Below the pieces are notes generated by a model. The model worked only from the letters and a program-made list of their open reading frames with translations. It made no database searches and had not been told where the DNA came from. The translations under genes and the position numbers were made by a program. A stretch of DNA of 64,000 nucleotides from the NCBI GenBank assembly GCA_005843825.1, contig SZXX01000001.1:1-64000 (forward strand). Reading direction: 5' to 3'. The DNA is from Chlorobium sp. (GTDB taxonomy: Bacteria; Bacteroidota; Chlorobiia; Chlorobiales; Chlorobiaceae). Positions 1,977-50,188 of the stretch are shown here, in pieces (position 1 is the stretch's first letter; each line of letters opens with the position of its first letter).

Positions 1977-2764
1977 TGCTTATCAGGGTGATGTCCGACA
2001 TCCACAATGAGTTTTGTCACGAGCAGAGCGGGTGTGACTATCTTGTTCCTGAACTTGATGATGATAAGGATTCGACCCTCATTCTTGCCGGAGATATTGG
2101 ACTCCTCAACCGAAAGCAAACCTGGCTCAGTTTTCTTTCAAAATGCTCCAGCCAGTTCAAATACGTCTTTGTGGTTGAGGGAAATCATGAATGGTATAAA
2201 GGGAACATTGAGAAACACTCTTACCAGAACAGCATTGTTGAGTATGGGATTAAAAACACTGTTACCGGTCAGCTCATTATTGAAGAGGAAAAAGTTGCTA
2301 TAATCGGCACCACTCTCTGGACTGACTATTATGGAGGCAATCCTCTGGTAATGTTTGACATAAATCATGGGCTCAGCGACTATAATCTGATAAAAGTCGG
2401 CACTGAATACCGCCGGTTAAGACCGGAATACATTTTAGCCCTACACCATAAGCAAAAAAAGAGGCTTTTTCTCGCTGTTGATCACTATGCGGCGCTGGGA
2501 TACACGATTGTAGTGGTAACGCATCACCATCCTTCACTGCAGGGAATTCTGCCCGATTACAGGGGGGATGCACTTAATGCAGCTTACGTTTCTGACCTTG
2601 AAAAAGAAGTCATGACCCACAAGATAGCCTACTGGATCTGTGGCCACTGCCATACCGCCATGGAATATTCAATTGGAAATACAAAGGTGATATGCAACCC
2701 CAAAGGATACCCGCACGAACAAGGCAATGGATTCAATCCACTCAAAACGCTGAGCATAAATTAA
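1976..2764 (+). CDS. Calcineurin-like metallophosphoesterase
   Basis: The 262-residue protein has the full metal-binding motif series of the calcineurin-like phosphoesterase superfamily: SDIH near residue 7, GDIG near 40, GNHEW near 69, THHHPS near 182 and GHCHT near 223. Two divalent metals are expected in the active site. The substrate cannot be told. There is no signal peptide, so it should be cytoplasmic. Its ATG overlaps the stop codon of the truncated antitoxin, which may couple translation. It sits beside the DinD/antitoxin block and may have come with it. Confidence 0.85.
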   Translation: MLIRVMSDIHNEFCHEQSGCDYLVPELDDDKDSTLILAGDIGLLNRKQTWLSFLSKCSSQFKYVFVVEGNHEWYKGNIEKHSYQNSIVEYGIKNTVTGQLIIEEEKVAIIGTTLWTDYYGGNPLVMFDINHGLSDYNLIKVGTEYRRLRPEYILALHHKQKKRLFLAVDHYAALGYTIVVVTHHHPSLQGILPDYRGDALNAAYVSDLEKEVMTHKIAYWICGHCHTAMEYSIGNTKVICNPKGYPHEQGNGFNPLKTLSIN

Positions 2765-2780
2765 ATTCTCCGCAAACAAC

Positions 2781-2832
2781 GTCTTTTATAAGCCCTATAA
2801 GTCCCATACGACCTATAGGTCCTATTCTTCTC
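2781..2832. repeat. Degenerate CCTATA(A/G)GTC tandem repeat between convergent genes
   Basis: Successive units read CCTATAAGTC, CCATACGAC, CTATAGGTC, CTATTC. They follow GTCTTTTATAAG, which is shared with 1226-1250. The repeat fills the gap between two convergent genes and runs into the end of the ROK kinase gene, supplying its stop codon. ACCTATAGGT at 2811-2820 is a perfect palindrome. Confidence 0.6.
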
Positions 2833-3745
2833 TCCTCCCTATAGTAAGCAGCGCAGCACCGAAAACACCAGCGCTATCTCCAAGAAGAGGGCGCAGTAGC
2901 GGAATCCTCAGCTCGCTGTTAAACAAATGCCGCTCAATAGCCTGCACAGCTTCTTTCGAATAGAGCTGCTCAACCTGCCCGACACCGCCGCCTAAAATGC
3001 AGACATCAGGATCAAGGATATTGAGCACCTGAGCCAGCGCTTTGCCGAAATAAAAGAGCAGGCGCTCAATCGTTTCAGCTGCAGCAGCGTCAGACCCTGC
3101 AGTTGCCGAGATTTGCTCCAGGGGGAGGGAGCGTCCGGTGAGTTTCTGATAAAATCGTTCAAGCGCAGGGCCTGAAATAACCGTCTCCACACAGCCCCTT
3201 CTGCCGCAATAGCAGGGTTCGCCGTCCGCGATCAGCTCATTATGCCCCCATTCACCGGCAATGCCGTGGGCTCCGTGCCGCAAACTCCCGTGACATACAA
3301 TCCCTCCGCCGACACCGGTACCGAGAATAATACCGAAAGCTGTCTTTGACGGGTCGCGCATGATTGATGCCGCTGCGCCGAGCCGGGATTCGGCGAGGGC
3401 AAAACAGTTGGCGTCGTTTTCTATGATCACTTTTTTCTGGAGGACCGCTTCAAGATCGCCTTTGAAATCGCGACCATTCAGGCATACCGTATTGGAATTT
3501 TTCATGATGGCCAGGGCCTTGTCATAACGACCGGGGGTGCCGACGCCGATCACTTCCGGAGGTGCAATGCCTGATTCCTCTGAGATCATCTCAACCAGGT
3601 GCATTATGCGATCGAGGATATGGCGATAGCCTTGGGTTGCCTCCGTCACAATCCGGCGGCGAATGAGGGGCTGCATGGAGCGGTCAATCACCACCGCCTC
3701 GATTTTGGTGCCGCCAAGGTCTATTCCCCAGAAGGTGTCAGCCAT
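2822..3745 (-). CDS. ROK-family sugar kinase (glucokinase/GlcNAc kinase-like)
   Basis: The 307-residue protein begins with the phosphate-binding motif GIDLGGTKIEAVV. It carries the ROK zinc site: GEWGHN followed by CYCGRRGC at about residues 178-186. A second glycine-rich motif, GTGVGGGIV, lies near 140. ROK kinases phosphorylate glucose, N-acetylglucosamine or related sugars with ATP; the specific sugar is not determinable here. The start overlaps the end of the PAP2 gene by 8 bases, so it is the last gene of the rpmH-yidC operon. The stop codon lies in an intergenic repeat. Confidence 0.85.
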   Translation of the reverse strand: MADTFWGIDLGGTKIEAVVIDRSMQPLIRRRIVTEATQGYRHILDRIMHLVEMISEESGIAPPEVIGVGTPGRYDKALAIMKNSNTVCLNGRDFKGDLEAVLQKKVIIENDANCFALAESRLGAAASIMRDPSKTAFGIILGTGVGGGIVCHGSLRHGAHGIAGEWGHNELIADGEPCYCGRRGCVETVISGPALERFYQKLTGRSLPLEQISATAGSDAAAAETIERLLFYFGKALAQVLNILDPDVCILGGGVGQVEQLYSKEAVQAIERHLFNSELRIPLLRPLLGDSAGVFGAALLTIGRREE

Positions 3746-41444: not shown

Positions 41445-41633
41445 TGGTGGAGCTCCTTTTGGTTTTAGTTTCCAACTGTTAATGCCGTCCGGTGGTCGCA
41501 ACGGCTGCGTCAATGTACTGCTATTCTTTTTTAAAGAATAACACTATTGTAAGATGCTATCGTGTCACGTTTGTCGCGTTCTTTTAATACCTTTGATCTT
41601 TGAAAAAGAGATAACTGAAGATGTTTTGTTGCG

Positions 41634-42944
41634 ATGCCGATAGATACTGAAGAACCCACGATAAAAAATCCGGAAAAGCCGGAACTTCAAACGAAAAAAG
41701 GAGTGTCAGGACAATTGCTTTCAGCTTTTCCTGCATTTCAGAGCCGGAATTTTCGTCGTTATTTCCCAGGGCAGGTTATTTCCATGATCGGTACATGGAT
41801 ACAGATGGTGGCGCAGGGCTGGCTGGTGCTTGAAATTACCGGTTCGGCATTTGACGTCGGAGTTGTTGCTGCGGCCTCGACCCTGCCAACGCTCTTTCTC
41901 TCTCTCTTTGGGGGTGTTATTGTCGATCGCTATTCGAAGCGCACGATTCTCCTCTGGACCCAGTCAGCGGCAATGATACTTGCCTTTATCCTTGGTGTTT
42001 TTGCGGTGACAGGTACTGTTACTATCTGGATCATTATTGTACTCTCCTTTCTTCTCGGTTGTGTCAACGCGCTCAATGTTCCTGCACTCCAGGCTTTTCT
42101 CAGTGAAATAGTTGAAAGGGAGGATCTGGCATCAGCCATAGCGATGAATTCGGCGATCTATAACGTCTCAAGGGTTATCGGGCCGGCTATTGCAGGATTT
42201 CTTATTTCAGCCGCAGGGTCTGGCGTTGCTTTTCTTGTCAACGGAGTCAGCTTTTTTGCTGTTATTCTCTCCCTTCTTTCCATGAAGGATCTCTCCGAAA
42301 AAATTAGAGAGATAAATCCTGTTCATCCGCTTCAGTCTATCAGGGAAGGGCTGAAATATTCATGGGATCATCCGTTGATACGAACTGTAGTTTTATTTAT
42401 AGCAGTAATTGCAATTTTTGCGTGGTCTTATGTCACCATGCTTCCGGTGATTGCAAAACAGACGTTCGGAATGGATGCTTCCGGTCTTGGGTATCTTTAC
42501 GGCGTTTCCGGTCTTGGTTCCGTTATTGGTACCGTGGTTGTCTCCATATACTCCAAAAAAATCGACCCCCTCTTTTTTATTGCAGGCGGAAATATCCTTT
42601 TCGCTCTTGCCTTGATCGGGTTTACGTTTACAACCATTCTGCCTGTGGCACTGTTCTTTCTTTTTATCGCAGGCTTCGGACTTGTTGCCGCCGTTTCAAC
42701 CATGAGCGCTACAATTCAGAGTACAGTTGACGATCGTTTCCGGGGAAGAGTGATGAGTCTTTATATGATGGTATTCATGGGGTTCATGCCGATCGGCAAC
42801 GTTGAGATCGGCTATCTGTCGGAACACTTCGGCACAGGACTTGCCATCCGCACAGGATGTATCGTCACAATCCTCGCCTCATTATTTCTTATCTACTCAA
42901 GTAGAAGTGTCCGCACAGCCTACCAACGTTATAAAGCACTGTAA
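41634..42944 (+). CDS. MFS transporter (EntS/DHA3-like)
   Basis: The 436-residue protein has about 12 transmembrane helices. It opens with a cytoplasmic arm and FQSRNFRRYFPGQVISMIGTW, typical of the EntS/enterobactin exporter-like group. The motif GGVIVDRYSKR between helices 2 and 3 is the MFS signature. The substrate is not known. It borders the remnant island on its right. Confidence 0.9.
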   Translation: MPIDTEEPTIKNPEKPELQTKKGVSGQLLSAFPAFQSRNFRRYFPGQVISMIGTWIQMVAQGWLVLEITGSAFDVGVVAAASTLPTLFLSLFGGVIVDRYSKRTILLWTQSAAMILAFILGVFAVTGTVTIWIIIVLSFLLGCVNALNVPALQAFLSEIVEREDLASAIAMNSAIYNVSRVIGPAIAGFLISAAGSGVAFLVNGVSFFAVILSLLSMKDLSEKIREINPVHPLQSIREGLKYSWDHPLIRTVVLFIAVIAIFAWSYVTMLPVIAKQTFGMDASGLGYLYGVSGLGSVIGTVVVSIYSKKIDPLFFIAGGNILFALALIGFTFTTILPVALFFLFIAGFGLVAAVSTMSATIQSTVDDRFRGRVMSLYMMVFMGFMPIGNVEIGYLSEHFGTGLAIRTGCIVTILASLFLIYSSRSVRTAYQRYKAL

Positions 42945-42947
42945 AGA

Positions 42948-43106
42948 TTAGAGTGCATTGAGATCAAAGCCGTATTTGAGGTAGCTGATCCTGTGGTTAT
43001 CACTATTAATGTTTTCAATCCATGCTTTTTCCTCATGACTGATCTTGACAATTTCTTGAGTACTGCTATCGGAGAAAGTGGCAGCTACAGTTTGTAACGT
43101 ACTCAC
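42948..43106 (-). CDS. Short unrecognised ORF with GTG start
   Basis: This minus-strand frame encodes 52 residues beginning MSTLQTVAATFSDSSTQEIV and ending SYLKYGFDLNAL. Codon use looks like a real gene. Composition is that of a soluble small protein (KISHEEKAWIENINSDNHR). AAGGG lies about 9 bases upstream of the GTG. I do not recognise a family. It could also be the intact tail of a longer lost gene. Its start codon sits in the loop of a hairpin (43099-43115). Confidence 0.4.
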   Translation of the reverse strand: MSTLQTVAATFSDSSTQEIVKISHEEKAWIENINSDNHRISYLKYGFDLNAL

Positions 43107-43136
43107 TCTGAGTACCCTTGAAGGGGTAACGTTACA
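43093..43136. repeat. Nested palindrome structure
   Basis: An outer inverted repeat, TGTAACG (43093-43099) and CGTTACA (43130-43136), encloses two hairpins: GTACTC/GAGTAC (43099-43115) and TACCC/GGGTA (43113-43128, sharing a few bases with the first). It lies exactly at the boundary between the small ORF and the terminase-like fragment, so it may mark an old recombination end. Confidence 0.5.
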
Positions 43137-43262
43137 GCTGCGCTGACGAGCTGGTTTGCTGCTGCGTGGATACTTGAGCGGAAGTGGGCGGAGCGGTGGG
43201 GTCGGCGTGAGGTGCTGCCTGGGGATGAGACGGGGTTGGATACGCTGGTGGTGATTGGGTAA
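43122..43262 (+). pseudogene. Phage terminase small-subunit-like fragment
   Basis: The frame reads RGNVTAALTSWFAAAWILER followed by KWAERWGRREVLPGDETG. GNVTAA followed by W.LE....ERWGRRE resembles the C-terminal part of phage small terminase subunits. There is no start codon and the frame opens after a stop. It is G-rich, unlike the flanks. A large-subunit fragment lies 4.3 kb downstream in the same orientation, which supports this reading, but identity is uncertain. Confidence 0.4.
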
Positions 43263-43305
43263 TTATTTCAAAACCTTAATCGTGCAGGGCTTTTGAATAT
43301 TGTCG

Positions 43306-43596
43306 CTAACGTGCCAACGCCCTGCTGACTGCTTCAGGTTCATGGGCAATGACGGTTAAAAGAACCCGTGCTGCCCGATCTGGTTGACGGCGTTTTTGTT
43401 CCCAATCTTGTAGTGCCCGAACATCAAAGCCAAATCGTGAAGAGAATTCGGGTTGCGTCAAACCCAAACTGGTGCGGATAGACTTGACGTCAATCTCCTC
43501 TGGAACATGCACAGTAAAGCCGTCACTCGTTTCTTCGCGTGCATAGGCTAACGCCTGGTTGGCGGACTGGATAAGTTTACTTCCTGCGTTGGACAT
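43306..43596 (-). CDS. higA: HigA-type XRE antitoxin
   Basis: A protein of about 96 residues from [10 protein letters not shown], with helix-turn-helix region [20 protein letters not shown] then [16 protein letters not shown]. It follows a RelE/HigB-type toxin gene and overlaps its end by 20 bases, the toxin-first order typical of higBA. It should neutralise the toxin and repress the operon. It resembles the orphan antitoxin at 1270-1584. Confidence 0.85.
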
Positions 43597-43942
43597 AGTT
43601 TTTAACTCCTTTCTTGTAAACATCAGCAATCGATCCTAAAATCAGCTTCAGTTCATTTCTTTCGGATTGCGATAAATTGGCTCTTTCACCTTTTGAAAAT
43701 ATAGATAACAGGAAAACGGGCATATCTTCTCCGGCATAGAAGGTAACAACCCTGTACCCTCCGCTTTTTCCCTTTCCCCGTCCAGCAAATCGAATTTTTC
43801 GCGCCCCGCCTGTACCTTTCATTTCCACTCCGACATCAGGGGTTTGCGCTATAAAATCGACGATTGATCGACGCTCATCAGCAGTTAAACCGAGCGCTTT
43901 GGCATCGACGAGATAATCCGGCGTTTCTATAACAAGATGCAT
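43577..43942 (-). CDS. higB: RelE/HigB-type toxin
   Basis: The 121-residue protein shows the HigB/RelE pattern ([49 protein letters not shown]). Family members cleave mRNA at the ribosome. A conserved core of basic and aromatic residues is intact. It is translationally coupled to higA. An IS21 fragment lies just upstream. Confidence 0.85.
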
Positions 43943-44001
43943 AGTTTAATGTACGGCAATGCCGTAGATAATGCAAGGGGTAGTTCGAGGGAACCACGCC
44001 C

Positions 44002-44253
44002 GCGGTCAAAATATTGGAGCGGTTTTCCGGCAAAAACAATCTCAAGGCGTTCACCTGGCACATGCGACTGCGCCATCGTTGCCTGTGGCTGTGCCGCCAG
44101 ATAATGCTTGAGATGAAAACTGAATTGCGCATAACGGTACCCGTCCGGTTGTTCCTTCAGGTACTCTTCCCACAAGAGTTGTTTGGTGACCCCGAGCAAT
44201 TTGAGTTGCTGGCCATAATACTGAAACCTTGGCTCTAACTGCTGAAAACGTTT
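44002..44253 (-). pseudogene. IS21-family transposase (IstA) fragment
   Basis: This frame reads KRFQQLEPRFQYYGQQLKLL, then GVTKQLLWEEYLKEQPDGYR and YAQFSFHLKHYLAAQPQATM, up to GKPLQYFDR. This is the middle of IS21 IstA. The DNA-binding N terminus and the rest of the DDE domain are missing, and the first catalytic Asp of the EIDFAG segment reads Val (EIVFAG). istB is absent. It is a dead remnant whose 3' side merges with the start of higB. Confidence 0.8.
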
Positions 44254-44802
44254 ATCAGTCGTTTGGCTGGATCGTGGAGAATAAACCACTGAGCTGAGCT
44301 CAGCGTCAGGTAGGGCGGAGTGCAGCGCTGTGTGATGAGCGGGTGCAGTTTGGTGCGGTTAGAGGCAACTGGGCTGAGTCTGCTGGACAGTATAGCACAG
44401 AGGCATGGAGCGTAGCGGACGAGCTGAGTTTGGAATGTTAGTTTTTATGGTTTTATCGCCATGCAAACTGAATCGATTTAAATAGTTAGGATAACAGGTG
44501 CAATGAGGAAGTAGTCAAAAGAATCAAGCGAATTAACATAAATAAAAGGAATTTGAAGAGCTTCTGACTGAGCTGAGAAGTGATTAGACTTTGCTGGCGA
44601 ATTCAGGTGAAGGGGAAATGCTAACGGATTGATTAAGTGTATGGCTTAAAAAATACGCAATGTTCAAGGGTCGCAGGTCTATGTATGTAATTGCTTGGCC
44701 GAAAATATGACTTAAGAAATCGGGAAACATCGGATTGCGCGGTTGTTGATTCTTGAGGTTGACTAGTAGCGTGACAGGCAGTCGTAAAGAAGTTATTGGT
44801 GA
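44254..44802. other. Gene-poor region beside the IS21 remnant
   Basis: There is no intact gene. GCTGAGCTCAGC at 44293-44304 is a palindrome. On the minus strand a frame without a start stays open from 44802 to 44584 and includes FGQAITYIDLRPLNIAYFLS. I cannot identify it and it may be a remnant. The left part is G-rich and the right part AT-rich, consistent with patchwork ancestry. Confidence 0.4.
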
Positions 44803-45024
44803 TTATAAGATGTGGATTTTGATGATATTTTGCCAGACTGTATAATCTTAGCCATTTAAATGTACCGCATCTAAAGTGGATTTAGGATCTAATGCCCTAT
44901 TAATAGCTAATCCGGCATTAAGATCGATATAGGTCGTTACTTTATTCGCACAAGCTAGCTTTTATAACTCAGCATTTAATGAAGTAATTATTCTGTTAGT
45001 TATTTGATATAATAAGGAAAATTT
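44803..45024 (-). pseudogene. SGNH/GDSL hydrolase remnant with two in-frame stops
   Basis: Reading through stops, the minus strand gives RIITSLNAEL, stop, KLACANKVTTYIDLNAGLA, INRALDPKSTLDAVHLNG, stop, DYTVWQNIIK. This matches the C-terminal part of SGNH/GDSL esterases (YIDLN.....LDP..T.D.VHLNGEGY.VW). The catalytic Asp...His pair is at DAVH. The nonsense codons are TAA at 44962-44964 and 44848-44850. The N-terminal catalytic Ser part is not present. It sits beside a frameshifted acyltransferase that also carries an SGNH-like domain. Confidence 0.65.
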
Positions 45025-45095
45025 TTGCCATTATTATAATGGGAGAATGTATATGTGGATCTATGTATTTCTAAATTAAACTATACTTTATATGG

Positions 45096-47130
45096 TTATA
45101 ATTGTTTCAATACTAACTCCATTGCGTCATCTTTTGGGTGCATTCCATCATAAAAATCTTTAGAAGAACAACCCACTTTACTTGGATCATATGATCCAAT
45201 AATCTTTATGTTTTTTTTTCAATGCTATTTCTCTATATTGATTCTCAATATAGAGAAATATAGGCTTCTCTTGTTTGATTCGTTTGTATAGGTCGGGATG
45301 GTATGGAGAAAGGACTAAAATTATTTCATATTTACTTCTATAGTAATCAAGAAATTTTTCAAATAAATCCATAGATTGTGGCGAAAACTTATATGAGGTC
45401 ATCGAATAGTTTATTAAACCATTAAATCCTCTACGTATTTCATCTTGCGTTGTAGTCGAGTAGTTCGTGTTATACATTCTACTTCCATCTTTACGAATAA
45501 TATCCTTGTATTGAAGAGGGCTATTATTATTAACATATGTTTTTGAGATATTTATTTTTTCATAAACATTATATACAGTCTCAAAAAAACTATGGTCATT
45601 TATTGTATATAATTTAGTGGCAATATGTTTTGGTTGTTTAGATTGACTAAACCTTGAAACCGCATTTATATATTCTGGTTTAAGTGATAGCCATCTTGAT
45701 TGACCAGAATTACTATTAAATAGCCAAGGGTCTGCACCAATGATTAGCTTTTTGGGGTGAAATTTATTAGTAGCTAAATCTATTATTGCAATATCGTCCT
45801 CAATAGAAGCCCCACTCACAGCAAAATTCAAACAATCATCTTTAAGATTATGTTTGCCGATTTGCATAATTCTACTAGAACCAGCAAGAATTACATTTGG
45901 ATTTTGTTTTTCAATTTCAATTCGAGACTTTACAAACAGTCTTTCATCCATATTACTTGAGATAACTCCAAGGTGATTCGATAACGCATATGCAAGTTTT
46001 TTTTCTGAATTAAACACTCCGTTACTTTCAAACAGATATGTTGAAAATAATCCGACTGATATAAATAACAAGCTGATAAATAAACTATATTTAAAGATTT
46101 TATGACGTGGAAATTGTTTCCTATTCTTAAAAGGTTGTTCAACATATTTCCACGTTATAAATGCGAACAATAAAGTTAATATTAGAATTAATCCTTTTAT
46201 GATCAGACTTGGCTCTGAAATAGTTGCGTACCGAGTGAAGGATAGTAAAGGTTGATGCCAAAGATACGCACTGTAACTAATAAGACCAATTCCAACAAAT
46301 AATTTCTTTCCCAACAACTTCCCGACCATTGTCGATGGCTTCCCAAATAGTATAATCAACGAAGCCCCAATGGTCGGTAAAATTGTATAGAGACTTGGAA
46401 ATGGGGTGTTCTTTTTGAAGGTAAAAATAGAGACTAACACCATACATAAGCCAATAATACTTAATAATTGATGTAATGTCTTGCTGCCGCCAATCTGTTT
46501 TGTAAACAAAATTGCAGTGAATGCACCAATTGCAATTTCCCACCCTCTCGTAGGAAGAAGGAAAAATGTCATTACAGGTTTATTATATGCGCCCCATTCA
46601 CAAACAGCTAAACTAAATATTGCAATAATCGCGAGTATACCAAATAATCTTCGTTTGCCAAATCTCCAAAAAATTAAAACAAATATAGGGAATAATACAT
46701 AATACTGCTCTTCTACCGATAAACTCCAGGTGTGTATCAAGGGATTAAGTTCTACAGCATCTTCAAAATACCCTCCACCTCTCCAAAAAAGAATGTTTGA
46801 TATGAATAGGCAAACCGCAATCAGACTCTTTGAAAAGTTATGTAAATCATTTGGTAATAATAATACCCACGCAACTGGGATACACATTGACATTACAAAA
46901 AATAGTGCAGGAAGGATTCGTCGTGCTCGCCTCTCGTAAAAATTGATAAGAGAGAATGTCCCTGACTCTTTTTCAGAAAGGATATTATGTGTTATTAGAT
47001 ATCCACTGATGACGAAAAATACGTCAACTCCAACAAAACCCCCACCAAATAATTTAAAACCAGCGTGGTACAGCATTACTGGAATAACAGCCAATGCTCG
47101 AAGACCATCTACTTCTCTCCTGTATTTCAT
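45096..47130 (-). pseudogene. OafA-type acyltransferase with frameshifted C-terminal SGNH domain
   Basis: The open frame (47130 to 45187) encodes 647 residues of an acyltransferase-3 protein: REVDGLRALAVIPVMLYHAG, then FFVISGYLIT, about ten helices and a periplasmic SGNH-like domain (AGSSRIMQ). It ends at KKKHKDYWII. At 45211-45219 the coding strand has nine A. With eight, the frame continues KKNIKIIGSYDPSKV...FYDGMHPKDDAM...LKQL to a TAA at 45096, restoring the catalytic DxxH (DGMH) of the SGNH fold. So a one-base slip has truncated it, either permanently or reversibly. It is AT-rich compared with its neighbours. Likely role: O-acylation of surface polysaccharide. Confidence 0.85.
45211..45219 (-). 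repeat. Homopolymer run at the acyltransferase frameshift
   Basis: Nine T on the plus strand (nine A in the coding strand). One base fewer would join the two frames of the acyltransferase. Such runs are typical slippage sites. Confidence 0.85.
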
Positions 47131-47184
47131 TCGTTGAGTATTAGATTTTTGAGGGATTTTGGATGGTCAATTGCCGGTAAGGAA

Positions 47185-47354
47185 TTTTAAAAGAAACAAT
47201 TCCAACATATCCTTGATTTCAGCGGTCGTTCAGCCACCAAGAATAGCTATCCTTTTATCAAGTAATTCTGATTGATTTAGCAGGTCACGACGTATAGCCT
47301 TTTTTTACGCAGCAGATAATGTGCGTCTAAAGGATAATTGATTGTAGTGACCAT
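47185..47354 (-). pseudogene. FkbH-like (HAD-IIIC) protein remnant
   Basis: From the ATG at 47354 the frame reads MVTTINYPLDAHYLLRKK. A shift in a run of seven A (47300-47306) then joins IRRDLLNQSELLDKRIAILGG, an in-frame TGA (47230-47232) in place of a Ser, and TTAEIKDMLELFLLK. This is the N terminus of FkbH-like proteins, where IAILGGSTT..EIKD.LELFLL is characteristic. The sequence breaks off there. It lies directly upstream of the acyltransferase on the same strand and was probably part of the same surface-polysaccharide operon. Confidence 0.6.
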
Positions 47355-47543
47355 AATTTGTAAACAGTTAATCTGCTGACTTGCAAAAGTCTTTTCTCGT
47401 AATAAGATAGTGATTTTGTAATTTTTGGCAAATCCTATCCGTTCACCTTTGCTCGCCATTTTTAGTTATAAATCCACCAAAGGCGGGGTATCTTTAGTAG
47501 GTATTATTATCTATTAATTGATGCGTTGAACAAAGGGGTTACG

Positions 47544-47777
47544 ATGAGATTCAGGATTAATAAGCGGAGGATGCTGCCGCATCAGGTGGCGTTTTGGGAG
47601 TTGCCGAATTTTGTGAAGTTGCTGGTTGGCGGGTATGGGTATGGGTTTGGGTTTGGGAAGACGCATATCGGGGCGCTCGGGTCGATTTATGACAGTTTTG
47701 TGAATGCTCCGGCTCCGCATTTGTATGTGTCGCCTTCATATAAGCAGGTGCGCAAAACGGTGCATTGGAGGGTGTGA
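47544..47777 (+). pseudogene. Phage terminase large-subunit fragment with expanded Walker A
   Basis: The frame reads MRFRINKRRMLPHQVAFWEL, then PNFVKLLVGGYGYGFGFGKT and HIGALGSIYDSFVNAP...YVSPSYKQ, the N terminus of a phage terminase ATPase. It stops after about 77 residues. The Walker A loop, normally GGYGSGKT, has become GGYGYGFGFGKT through hexamer repeats GGGTAT, GGGTAT, GGGTTT, GGGTTT (47631-47654). A ribosome binding site (AAAGGGG) is still visible. It is a prophage relic. Confidence 0.75.
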
Positions 47778-48013
47778 ATTTGGGCTGGGGAAGCTTTAAA
47801 GGAACGAATCAATGAATAAATGCTGTTTAAAGAATAACTCTATACTTGCTCTCTGTAATCCTGATTGCATTGATTTTTTACTTGTTAGGCAGATAACGTG
47901 GTGTGGTTTAGAATTGTAAATTTCCTGTAAATTATCGCCGGAAAGCGAAGTTGAGAATAGCATCTAACCTATTATTATGTATAATATTATCGGGATATAA
48001 TTATCAATTTTGT

Positions 48014-48565
48014 ATGAAACAGCTTAATATACTCCTGCTTGTCTTTGCAACTCTTCTGTTATTTTCTGCCGCTCCTGCGGAAAACATCAAGACACCCAAA
48101 AAAATGGAACAGCAAAAGCCTTCCAATCCATATTATTCCCGCACTGATAACGCGAAACTCAACCTGCCGGATGCAGTGTGGAAAAAAATACTCTCCCCTG
48201 AGGTCTACGCAGTAGCCCGTAAAAAACAAACCGAGTCAGCGTTTACCGGCAAGTTCTGGGACTATACCGGTAAGGGGACCTACTACTGTGCGGCATGTGG
48301 AAACGCCCTGTTTCGCTCCGATGCCAAATTTGCCTCAACCTGCGGCTGGCCGAGTTTTTTTGAAGAGGTGCGAAAAGGAAGTGTAACCTATATCCCGGAC
48401 CATTCATACGGCATGGTAAGGACTGAGGCCCTCTGCGGAAGGTGCGGTGCTCATCTTGGCCATCTTTTTGACGACGGCCCTCCCCCAACCGGAAAGCGTT
48501 TTTGCATGAACTCCGTTGTGCTGGATTTCGTCCCAGACAAGCAGGGAGCCAAAACAGCCAAATAG
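48014..48565 (+). CDS. msrB: Peptide methionine (R)-S-oxide reductase, exported
   Basis: The protein is about 183 residues from the ATG at 48014, with a Sec signal peptide (MKQLNILLLVFATLLLFSAAPA). It has the MsrB domain: zinc motifs CAAC and CGRC, and the catalytic Cys in KRFCMNS. It repairs oxidised methionine; export suggests a periplasmic site. A longer frame from 47951 is unlikely because it would bury the signal peptide. It stops 3 bases before the convergent emrB gene ends. Confidence 0.92.
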   Translation: MKQLNILLLVFATLLLFSAAPAENIKTPKKMEQQKPSNPYYSRTDNAKLNLPDAVWKKILSPEVYAVARKKQTESAFTGKFWDYTGKGTYYCAACGNALFRSDAKFASTCGWPSFFEEVRKGSVTYIPDHSYGMVRTEALCGRCGAHLGHLFDDGPPPTGKRFCMNSVVLDFVPDKQGAKTAK

Positions 48566-48568
48566 GGT

Positions 48569-50188
48569 TCAGTGTGCCGACGAAAGATCGACCTTTTCCC
48601 CTTTTGGTATCCTGATCAGGAGGAGCAGAGGCAGAGCAAGTGCAAAAAGGAGCGCAATAAGAGAAAATGCGTCCATGTAAGCCAGATGGTGGCTTTGAAC
48701 GGTGACGGTTCCCTCCAGCGCTTTTATGCCTGCGAGCTCAGCTTCATGCGGTGACATGCCTGCTTTCATAGTGGCAAGCTGCTGTACACTCTCAAGCCTT
48801 GTGACCGCAGCGGGATCATAGGGTGAAAGGTGGCTGAGAAGCTCCACCCTGTGAGCAGCAACCCGCCTTGCGATATAGGTATTGGTAATCGCAATGCCGA
48901 ACGAACCGCCAAGCTGGCGCACCATGTTATTGAGCCCGGTTGCCTGTCCGATATCTTTGCCGTGCAGCCCTGCAACAGCGAGCATGGTGACGGGAATGAA
49001 AATAAACCCGAGTCCGAAACCGCGTAACAGGAGTATCCAGAAAAAGTTATCCGCTCCTGACTGCATGGTTTGCTGACCGAGTTCCCAGCAGAACACTGTA
49101 AAGGAGACCATACCGACAGCCATCACTTTTTTCGGAGAGATACCCCGTTGCAACGCAATGCCGAGCGGAAGCGAGATTATTCCAGTGACAATTGTGCTTG
49201 GAAAAAGCACCAGTCCTGTCAGCAGTGCGGTAAAGCCGAGCAGCCGTTGCACAAAGACAGGAAAGATAAAGAGAGAGCCATAGAGGCCATAACCAACGAT
49301 AAAGGTAAGTACAGCCCCAATTGCCAGGTTTTTGCTTCGGGCCAGCACTCGCAGGTCAACAGCGGGTTCTTCGGTGTGCAGTTCCCACCAGACAAAAGCC
49401 AGAAGTGAAACAGCGGCGATGAGGGTAAACCAGGTAATATAGGGTGTTTCAAACCAGTCTTTCGCCTCTCCCCGTTCAAGAATGAACTGCAGTGAGCCGA
49501 TGCCGACAGCAAGAAGCCCGATACCTGCCCAGTCAATTTTAGAGACCGTGTGCTGGACTTTTGGCTCTCTGAGAAAAGTGAATGCAGACCATGCAGCAAG
49601 AAGCCCGACCGGGATGTTGACGAAAAAGCACCACTCCCAGGCAAAATAGTCTACAAGAAAGCCTCCAAGCAGCGGACCTATGGTAGGACCGAGCACAAGT
49701 CCCATGGAAAAGATGCCGGTCGCCTTGCCGCGTTCTTCTGGTCGGTATGTTTCGTAAAGGATAGCCTGTGATGTTGGTAAGAGAGCACCTCCGCCGAGGC
49801 CCTGCAGGAAGCGGAAAATCACCAGGGCCCATATATTCGGGGCCATGCCGCACAGCAGAGAAGCAAAGGTAAAAAGCAGAATCGAACCAATGTAGTAGTT
49901 TCGTCGTCCAAGCAGGTTTCCGAGAAAGCCGGAAAGGGGAATCACAATAACATTGGCAATGGCATAACTGGTGATGACCCATGCGGCATCATCGATACTC
50001 GCACCAAGGTTTCCGCTGATCTGGGTGAGCGCAACATTGACAATGGTCGTGTCGATCAGTTCAAGCATGGCCGACACGATCACCGTCAAGGTGATGATTA
50101 TTTTTCTGAATCCAGTGTCATATATCTGGGCTGGATTCGGCAGCATTGCCGCTACCGATACCCCACTCTGTTGTTCAACTCTTGCCAT
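48569..50188 (-). CDS. emrB: EmrB/QacA (DHA2) family drug exporter
   Basis: The 539-residue MFS protein has about 14 helices. Family motifs include LDTTIVNVAL-like ELIDTTIVNVAL, the antiporter motif region GLVLGPTIGPLLGGFLVDYF, and FVNIPVG. It works with an EmrA-type fusion protein and TolC to export toxic compounds. It is the last gene of the tolC-usp-emrA-emrB operon. Confidence 0.92.
   Translation of the reverse strand: MARVEQQSGVSVAAMLPNPAQIYDTGFRKIIITLTVIVSAMLELIDTTIVNVALTQISGNLGASIDDAAWVITSYAIANVIVIPLSGFLGNLLGRRNYYIGSILLFTFASLLCGMAPNIWALVIFRFLQGLGGGALLPTSQAILYETYRPEERGKATGIFSMGLVLGPTIGPLLGGFLVDYFAWEWCFFVNIPVGLLAAWSAFTFLREPKVQHTVSKIDWAGIGLLAVGIGSLQFILERGEAKDWFETPYITWFTLIAAVSLLAFVWWELHTEEPAVDLRVLARSKNLAIGAVLTFIVGYGLYGSLFIFPVFVQRLLGFTALLTGLVLFPSTIVTGIISLPLGIALQRGISPKKVMAVGMVSFTVFCWELGQQTMQSGADNFFWILLLRGFGLGFIFIPVTMLAVAGLHGKDIGQATGLNNMVRQLGGSFGIAITNTYIARRVAAHRVELLSHLSPYDPAAVTRLESVQQLATMKAGMSPHEAELAGIKALEGTVTVQSHHLAYMDAFSLIALLFALALPLLLLIRIPKGEKVDLSSAH

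Follow-up and report, generated by a model that had tools for sequence, protein, structure and literature searches.

The locus described here lies in a window of 64,000 nucleotides, the whole stretch of DNA that was analysed, from a Chlorobium sp. The host is a green sulfur bacterium, and its genome encodes the FMO protein (E = 7.9e-227). A 647-codon frame on the reverse strand joins an AT3 acyltransferase domain to a C-terminal SGNH domain (Table 1). PF01757 covers residues 6-327 of the window protein (E = 2.2e-28, 99.7 bits against a cut-off of 31), which also carries the two motifs reported for SGNH-fused AT3 proteins, namely R-X10-H and the GG-F/Y-XGV-D/P/V loop (PMC7448272). The first is present in transmembrane helix 1 as R11-X10-H22 and the second as GGGFVGVD; in an alignment of 14 relatives, R11, H22, G30, G31, G34, V35 and D36 are invariant. 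An extra transmembrane helix connects the AT3 domain to the C-terminal domain. The sequence upstream of the frame break described below had been called intact in an earlier note on this DNA, in agreement with the AT3 match and with a frame free of internal stops.

Table 1. Features of the acyltransferase gene and of the segment that contains it (window coordinates).
Feature	Position	Strand	Basis
Segment with the AT3 gene; G007 and G015 (sister species) lack it between the two transporter genes	42945..48567		genome comparison
Open frame, 647 aa: AT3 domain, extra transmembrane helix, truncated SGNH domain	45187..47130	-	PF01757, motifs
SGNH domain, in-frame part with membrane anchor; block I = GSSR	45190..46080	-	homology to stand-alone L088, L089, L090, L092
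Nine-A run (sense), point of frame loss	45211..45219	-	sequence
SGNH domain end, out of frame: block V DGMH and stop codon near relatives' ends	45096..45218	-	alignment, profile E = 4.6e-6

The C-terminal domain of the window protein matched no Pfam or NCBIfam family. PF19040, the SGNH family usual in AT3 proteins, was absent from the window protein in a Pfam scan up to E = 1, with the intact paralogue of the same genome (L001 on contig C52, 1.7e-35) and L004 (2.5e-8) as positive controls. No PDB chain matched the domain, by sequence or by profile, and a single-sequence structure prediction reached a mean pLDDT of 34 and was not used; for these reasons the assignment rests on sequence motifs. 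These fit SGNH blocks I and V, from which we infer that the domain is of the SGNH kind. Its stand-alone relatives are membrane-anchored proteins encoded by open frames of 313-433 residues, and the close ones share GSSR, DPWLF-like, LSP and DxxH motifs. The G-S-S-R of block I is invariant in the window domain and in L088, L089, L090 and L092. Homology to the family of L088, L090 and L092 extends over the whole domain and includes GSSR, LSP and DxxH, the part with DxxH lying in another frame of the window gene. L091 had been considered as a further relative and was dropped, because the protein is of another kind and the profile failed to recover it.

The frame is lost at a run of nine A, as the earlier note proposed; the forward strand reads T9 here and the sense strand A9. 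The reported frame stops eight codons beyond the run, at 45187, with the C-terminus ...ALKKKHKDYWII. From the run onward, the neighbouring frame reads KKNIKIIGSYDPSKVGCSSKDFYDGMHPKDDAMELVLKQL, up to a stop at 45096-45098. Counted from the last shared residue, this frame gives 677 residues versus 647, confirming the predicted extension of about 30 residues. The Ser block thus lies in the reported frame and the Asp/His block, DGMH, in the next one, where its DxxH aligns with the C-termini of the relatives. The claim that the downstream frame is coding-like also held: compared alone with a small database, the tail aligns with the C-terminal ends of SGNH relatives (E 1.2e-6 and 1.8e-5), and the family profile finds it too. 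Four relatives' C-termini align with it across the conserved DxxH, and five columns, including the Asp and His of this motif, are invariant in all five sequences. Closest to the tail is a Subdoligranulum variabile protein, which reads NIPVYGSYNPYAIPATSADFYDGLHP; the Subdoligranulum sequence IPVYGSYNPYAIPATSADFYDGLHP is 40% identical to the tail. In L089 and L090, the in-frame part and the tail match consecutively inside one protein. When the family profile was run against the whole genome, the tail was a separate match at model positions 304-343, directly preceded by the in-frame match at positions 7-319. On these alignments, the tail supplies the end that the SGNH domain lacks in the reported frame and is, as judged from its sequence, real coding sequence.

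None of four close SGNH relatives ends naturally at the run without DxxH. This motif, or a similar one, stands near the C-terminus of almost all full-length AT3-SGNH proteins examined, and the few without it are short proteins or are encoded close to the end of a contig. Since the reported frame lacks block V, the reported allele is most likely inactive for acyl transfer, by analogy with OafA, in which the substitutions S412A and H590A leave <1% activity and D587A about 10% (PMC7448272). The frame break is fresh. Coding sequence is clean on either side of the run, no other decay is seen, and across a run of eight A in the same gene (45997-46004) the frame remains open.

Clean coding sequence on both sides of the run is also what speaks for an error of sequencing or assembly, with a miscalled run length or a minority variant in the assembly and a gene that is intact in the organism; homopolymers are, moreover, the commonest site of indel errors. 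The genome, however, contains 97 exact A9 runs, 96 of which were read as sequence stretches around each run. Of these, 28 sit harmlessly within open frames that are at least 150 codons long and extend 30 codons or more to either side of the run. Runs near frame ends were read singly and comprised three natural gene ends, by inspection those of a sigma factor, an ATP-synthase-associated membrane protein and a TamB-like protein, and others with no recognisable broken gene. With at least 28 other open frames reading through A9, and no other run of the 96 truncating a recognisable gene, errors are not systematic, and we consider an isolated miscall unlikely, ranking next after a recent mutation.

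The same survey bears on phase variation, which the earlier note had listed beside recent loss and sequencing error. Replication slippage at the A9 run would then toggle the acyltransferase in the manner of a surface-antigen switch. A run of nine A is mutable, and some surface acyltransferases are phase variable, such as oafB of Salmonella Typhi, which is under epigenetic control (PMC9558356). Against such a switch, the length of the run is unexceptional in this genome, the run lies near the 3' end of the gene, at 94% of its length, and a single allele is known. The harmless runs inside other frames point neither to systematic homopolymer error nor to a phase-switch system, and we regard phase variation as very improbable.

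Equally improbable, in our estimate, is that the gene still works through slippage of RNA polymerase on the run, which would yield some in-frame mRNA. Slippage during transcription is relevant in bacteria at runs of this length: the A9 run of Thermus thermophilus dnaX gives two products by slippage, the long product of Shigella mxiE needs slippage (PMC1088944), and poly-A frameshifts of Blochmannia may be rescued by it (PMC3017870). In A/T runs, however, single-base insertions prevail in slippage (PMC5574713), and an insertion in this direction does not restore the window frame. Efficient slippage would also harm about 30 other open frames of the genome. A recent mutation is therefore the likeliest explanation of the frame break, the slip having probably occurred in the DNA rather than in the assembly; among the possibilities raised earlier, recent loss is favoured and phase variation is weakened.

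The gene differs from its surroundings in composition, with a GC content of 0.33 versus 0.47 for the window and values of 0.295-0.342 at 45001-47000. The two transporter genes that flank the segment are close neighbours in G007 and G015: sequences matching 41582-42934 and 48568-50148 are separated by just 39-50 bases in these sister species, against 5.6 kb here. The same variable segment contains, at 43306-43942, a RelE-like toxin gene (PF06296) that overlaps an MqsA-like/HTH antitoxin gene. By eye, the ORF at 43927-44289 looks like a truncated IS21 transposase (IstA) of which the N-terminal part is left, and an 83-aa ORF at 47526-47777 looks like the beginning of the large terminase subunit of a phage; neither had a Pfam match. 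From the low GC content, the lack of the segment in sister species, and the toxin, transposase-like and terminase-like pieces, we conclude that the gene lies in a variable segment that was probably acquired horizontally. From 47525 onward, the sequence is 86% conserved in sister genome G005 (L136). In another sister genome (G006:C232:13405-15017), the flanking EmrB-like transporter gene is broken into two overlapping frames.

A PF03062 (MBOAT) gene adjoins all 14 stand-alone relatives of the SGNH domain that were examined (L088, L089, L090, L092, L227-L235 and L237). Because the relatives of the domain are stand-alone proteins next to MBOAT genes, the window gene is, at the level of its sequence, a fusion of AT3 with an SGNH domain of the MBOAT-partner type and not of the PF19040 type usual in AT3 proteins. 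When a profile of the SGNH family was compared in hhalign with 73 canonical AT3-SGNH C-termini, with the window protein left out of the template, the probability was 16%. Within the 65 genomes of the genus and the 394 of the phylum that were searched, the window genome is the only one with the fusion. L238, which within the genus is the AT3 relative closest to the window protein, shares 52% identity with it over residues 1-360 and then continues into a different SGNH end. The window SGNH type was absent from the AT3 relatives taken from genome contigs and from the order, and none of the 64 closest AT3 relatives, in a view beyond the phylum, carries it. One stand-alone relative of the SGNH domain was found in the plasmid collection and none on viral contigs. 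A misjoined assembly at the AT3/SGNH junction is disfavoured, since the frame continues unbroken from one half into the other and each half is AT-rich. The earlier note correctly recognised an acyltransferase with an SGNH domain broken at the run; it missed the MBOAT-neighbour type of that domain and the foreign-looking insertion. The 14 stand-alone proteins form a broad SGNH-like set beside MBOAT genes that would merit a family model of its own.

Other AT3 genes are interrupted as well. In a sister species (G093:C26, L254), an AT3 gene of the same family is split: its first half occupies 1411-2205 and a further piece 3315-3677, and two ORFs that resemble transposases (2233-2697 and 2687-3382; IS630-like by eye) separate the two parts. 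Stops or split matches were also seen in AT3 genes of G262:C20, G165:C1, G009:C78 and G309:C356. In this family, surface acyltransferases seem to have been lost repeatedly. The frameshift itself is ordinary, and it is commonplace for a surface-acyltransferase gene in a foreign segment to be broken; less ordinary, and worth following, is the hybrid architecture.

On balance, we favour the explanation that this is an acquired hybrid AT3/SGNH acyltransferase that was recently broken by a one-base slip in the A9 run, leaving an allele that is most likely inactive. Horizontal acquisition would have brought in a membrane acyltransferase gene of hybrid make-up. By analogy with OafA/OafB and OatA, its AT3 domain may take an acyl group, probably acetyl, from CoA and move it across the inner membrane, and the periplasmic SGNH domain would place this group on a surface glycan. 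The recent slip would then have cost the protein its final ~38 residues, among them the catalytic Asp/His block. That such a pairing is workable is suggested by the AT3 protein WecH, which can replace the MBOAT protein PatA and feed PatB; cross-talk between AT3 and MBOAT proteins was raised in a review from this observation (PMC9558356). We think it likely that the window gene is a natural fusion in which AT3 and MBOAT, membrane carriers that are unrelated to each other, have drawn on periplasmic transferase modules that are interchangeable, and that the GSSR/DxxH SGNH proteins beside MBOAT genes are their glycan acyltransferase partners. The architecture bears on how AT3 and MBOAT carriers pass acyl groups to SGNH domains and on whether these domains are interchangeable. 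If the interpretation is true, the covalent fusion shows that evolution made the same swap as that of WecH for PatA, and it provides a lead on the function of the SGNH proteins beside MBOAT genes.

Loss of a surface acyltransferase gene by frameshift has a counterpart in Haemophilus influenzae, in which an AT3 gene is frameshifted in strain Rd and intact in strain Eagan (PMC9558356). That case concerns a different AT3 gene, and the window gene is known from its broken allele alone. Among SGNH families, DUF1574 (PF07611), of which the function is not known (PMC9487903), gave no match above its cut-off in the window protein and a weak match in relative L090 (E = 2.4e-4, 21 bits against a cut-off of 29.1). 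Three close stand-alone relatives that were scanned had no Pfam matches above cut-off, and one SGNH relative reaches both DUF1574 and GDSL-2 below their cut-offs. The window protein resembles OafA, OafB and OatA (PF01757 + PF19040) in its AT3 motifs (R-X10-H and the GG-F-XGV-D loop), its extra helix and a C-terminal periplasmic SGNH domain whose block V, DxxH, stands close to the end of the protein. It differs from this group in that PF19040 is lacking, block I reads GSSR instead of the usual GDSH, and block V lies outside the reported frame. The relatives of its SGNH domain, in turn, resemble the PatA/PatB, AlgI/AlgJ-AlgX and DltB/DltD systems in being membrane-anchored, stand-alone and located beside an MBOAT gene, although by Pfam the family is not that of PatB, AlgX or DltD. 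Unlike in these MBOAT-SGNH pairs, no MBOAT gene was seen among the ORFs adjoining the window gene, and the SGNH domain is fused directly to AT3.
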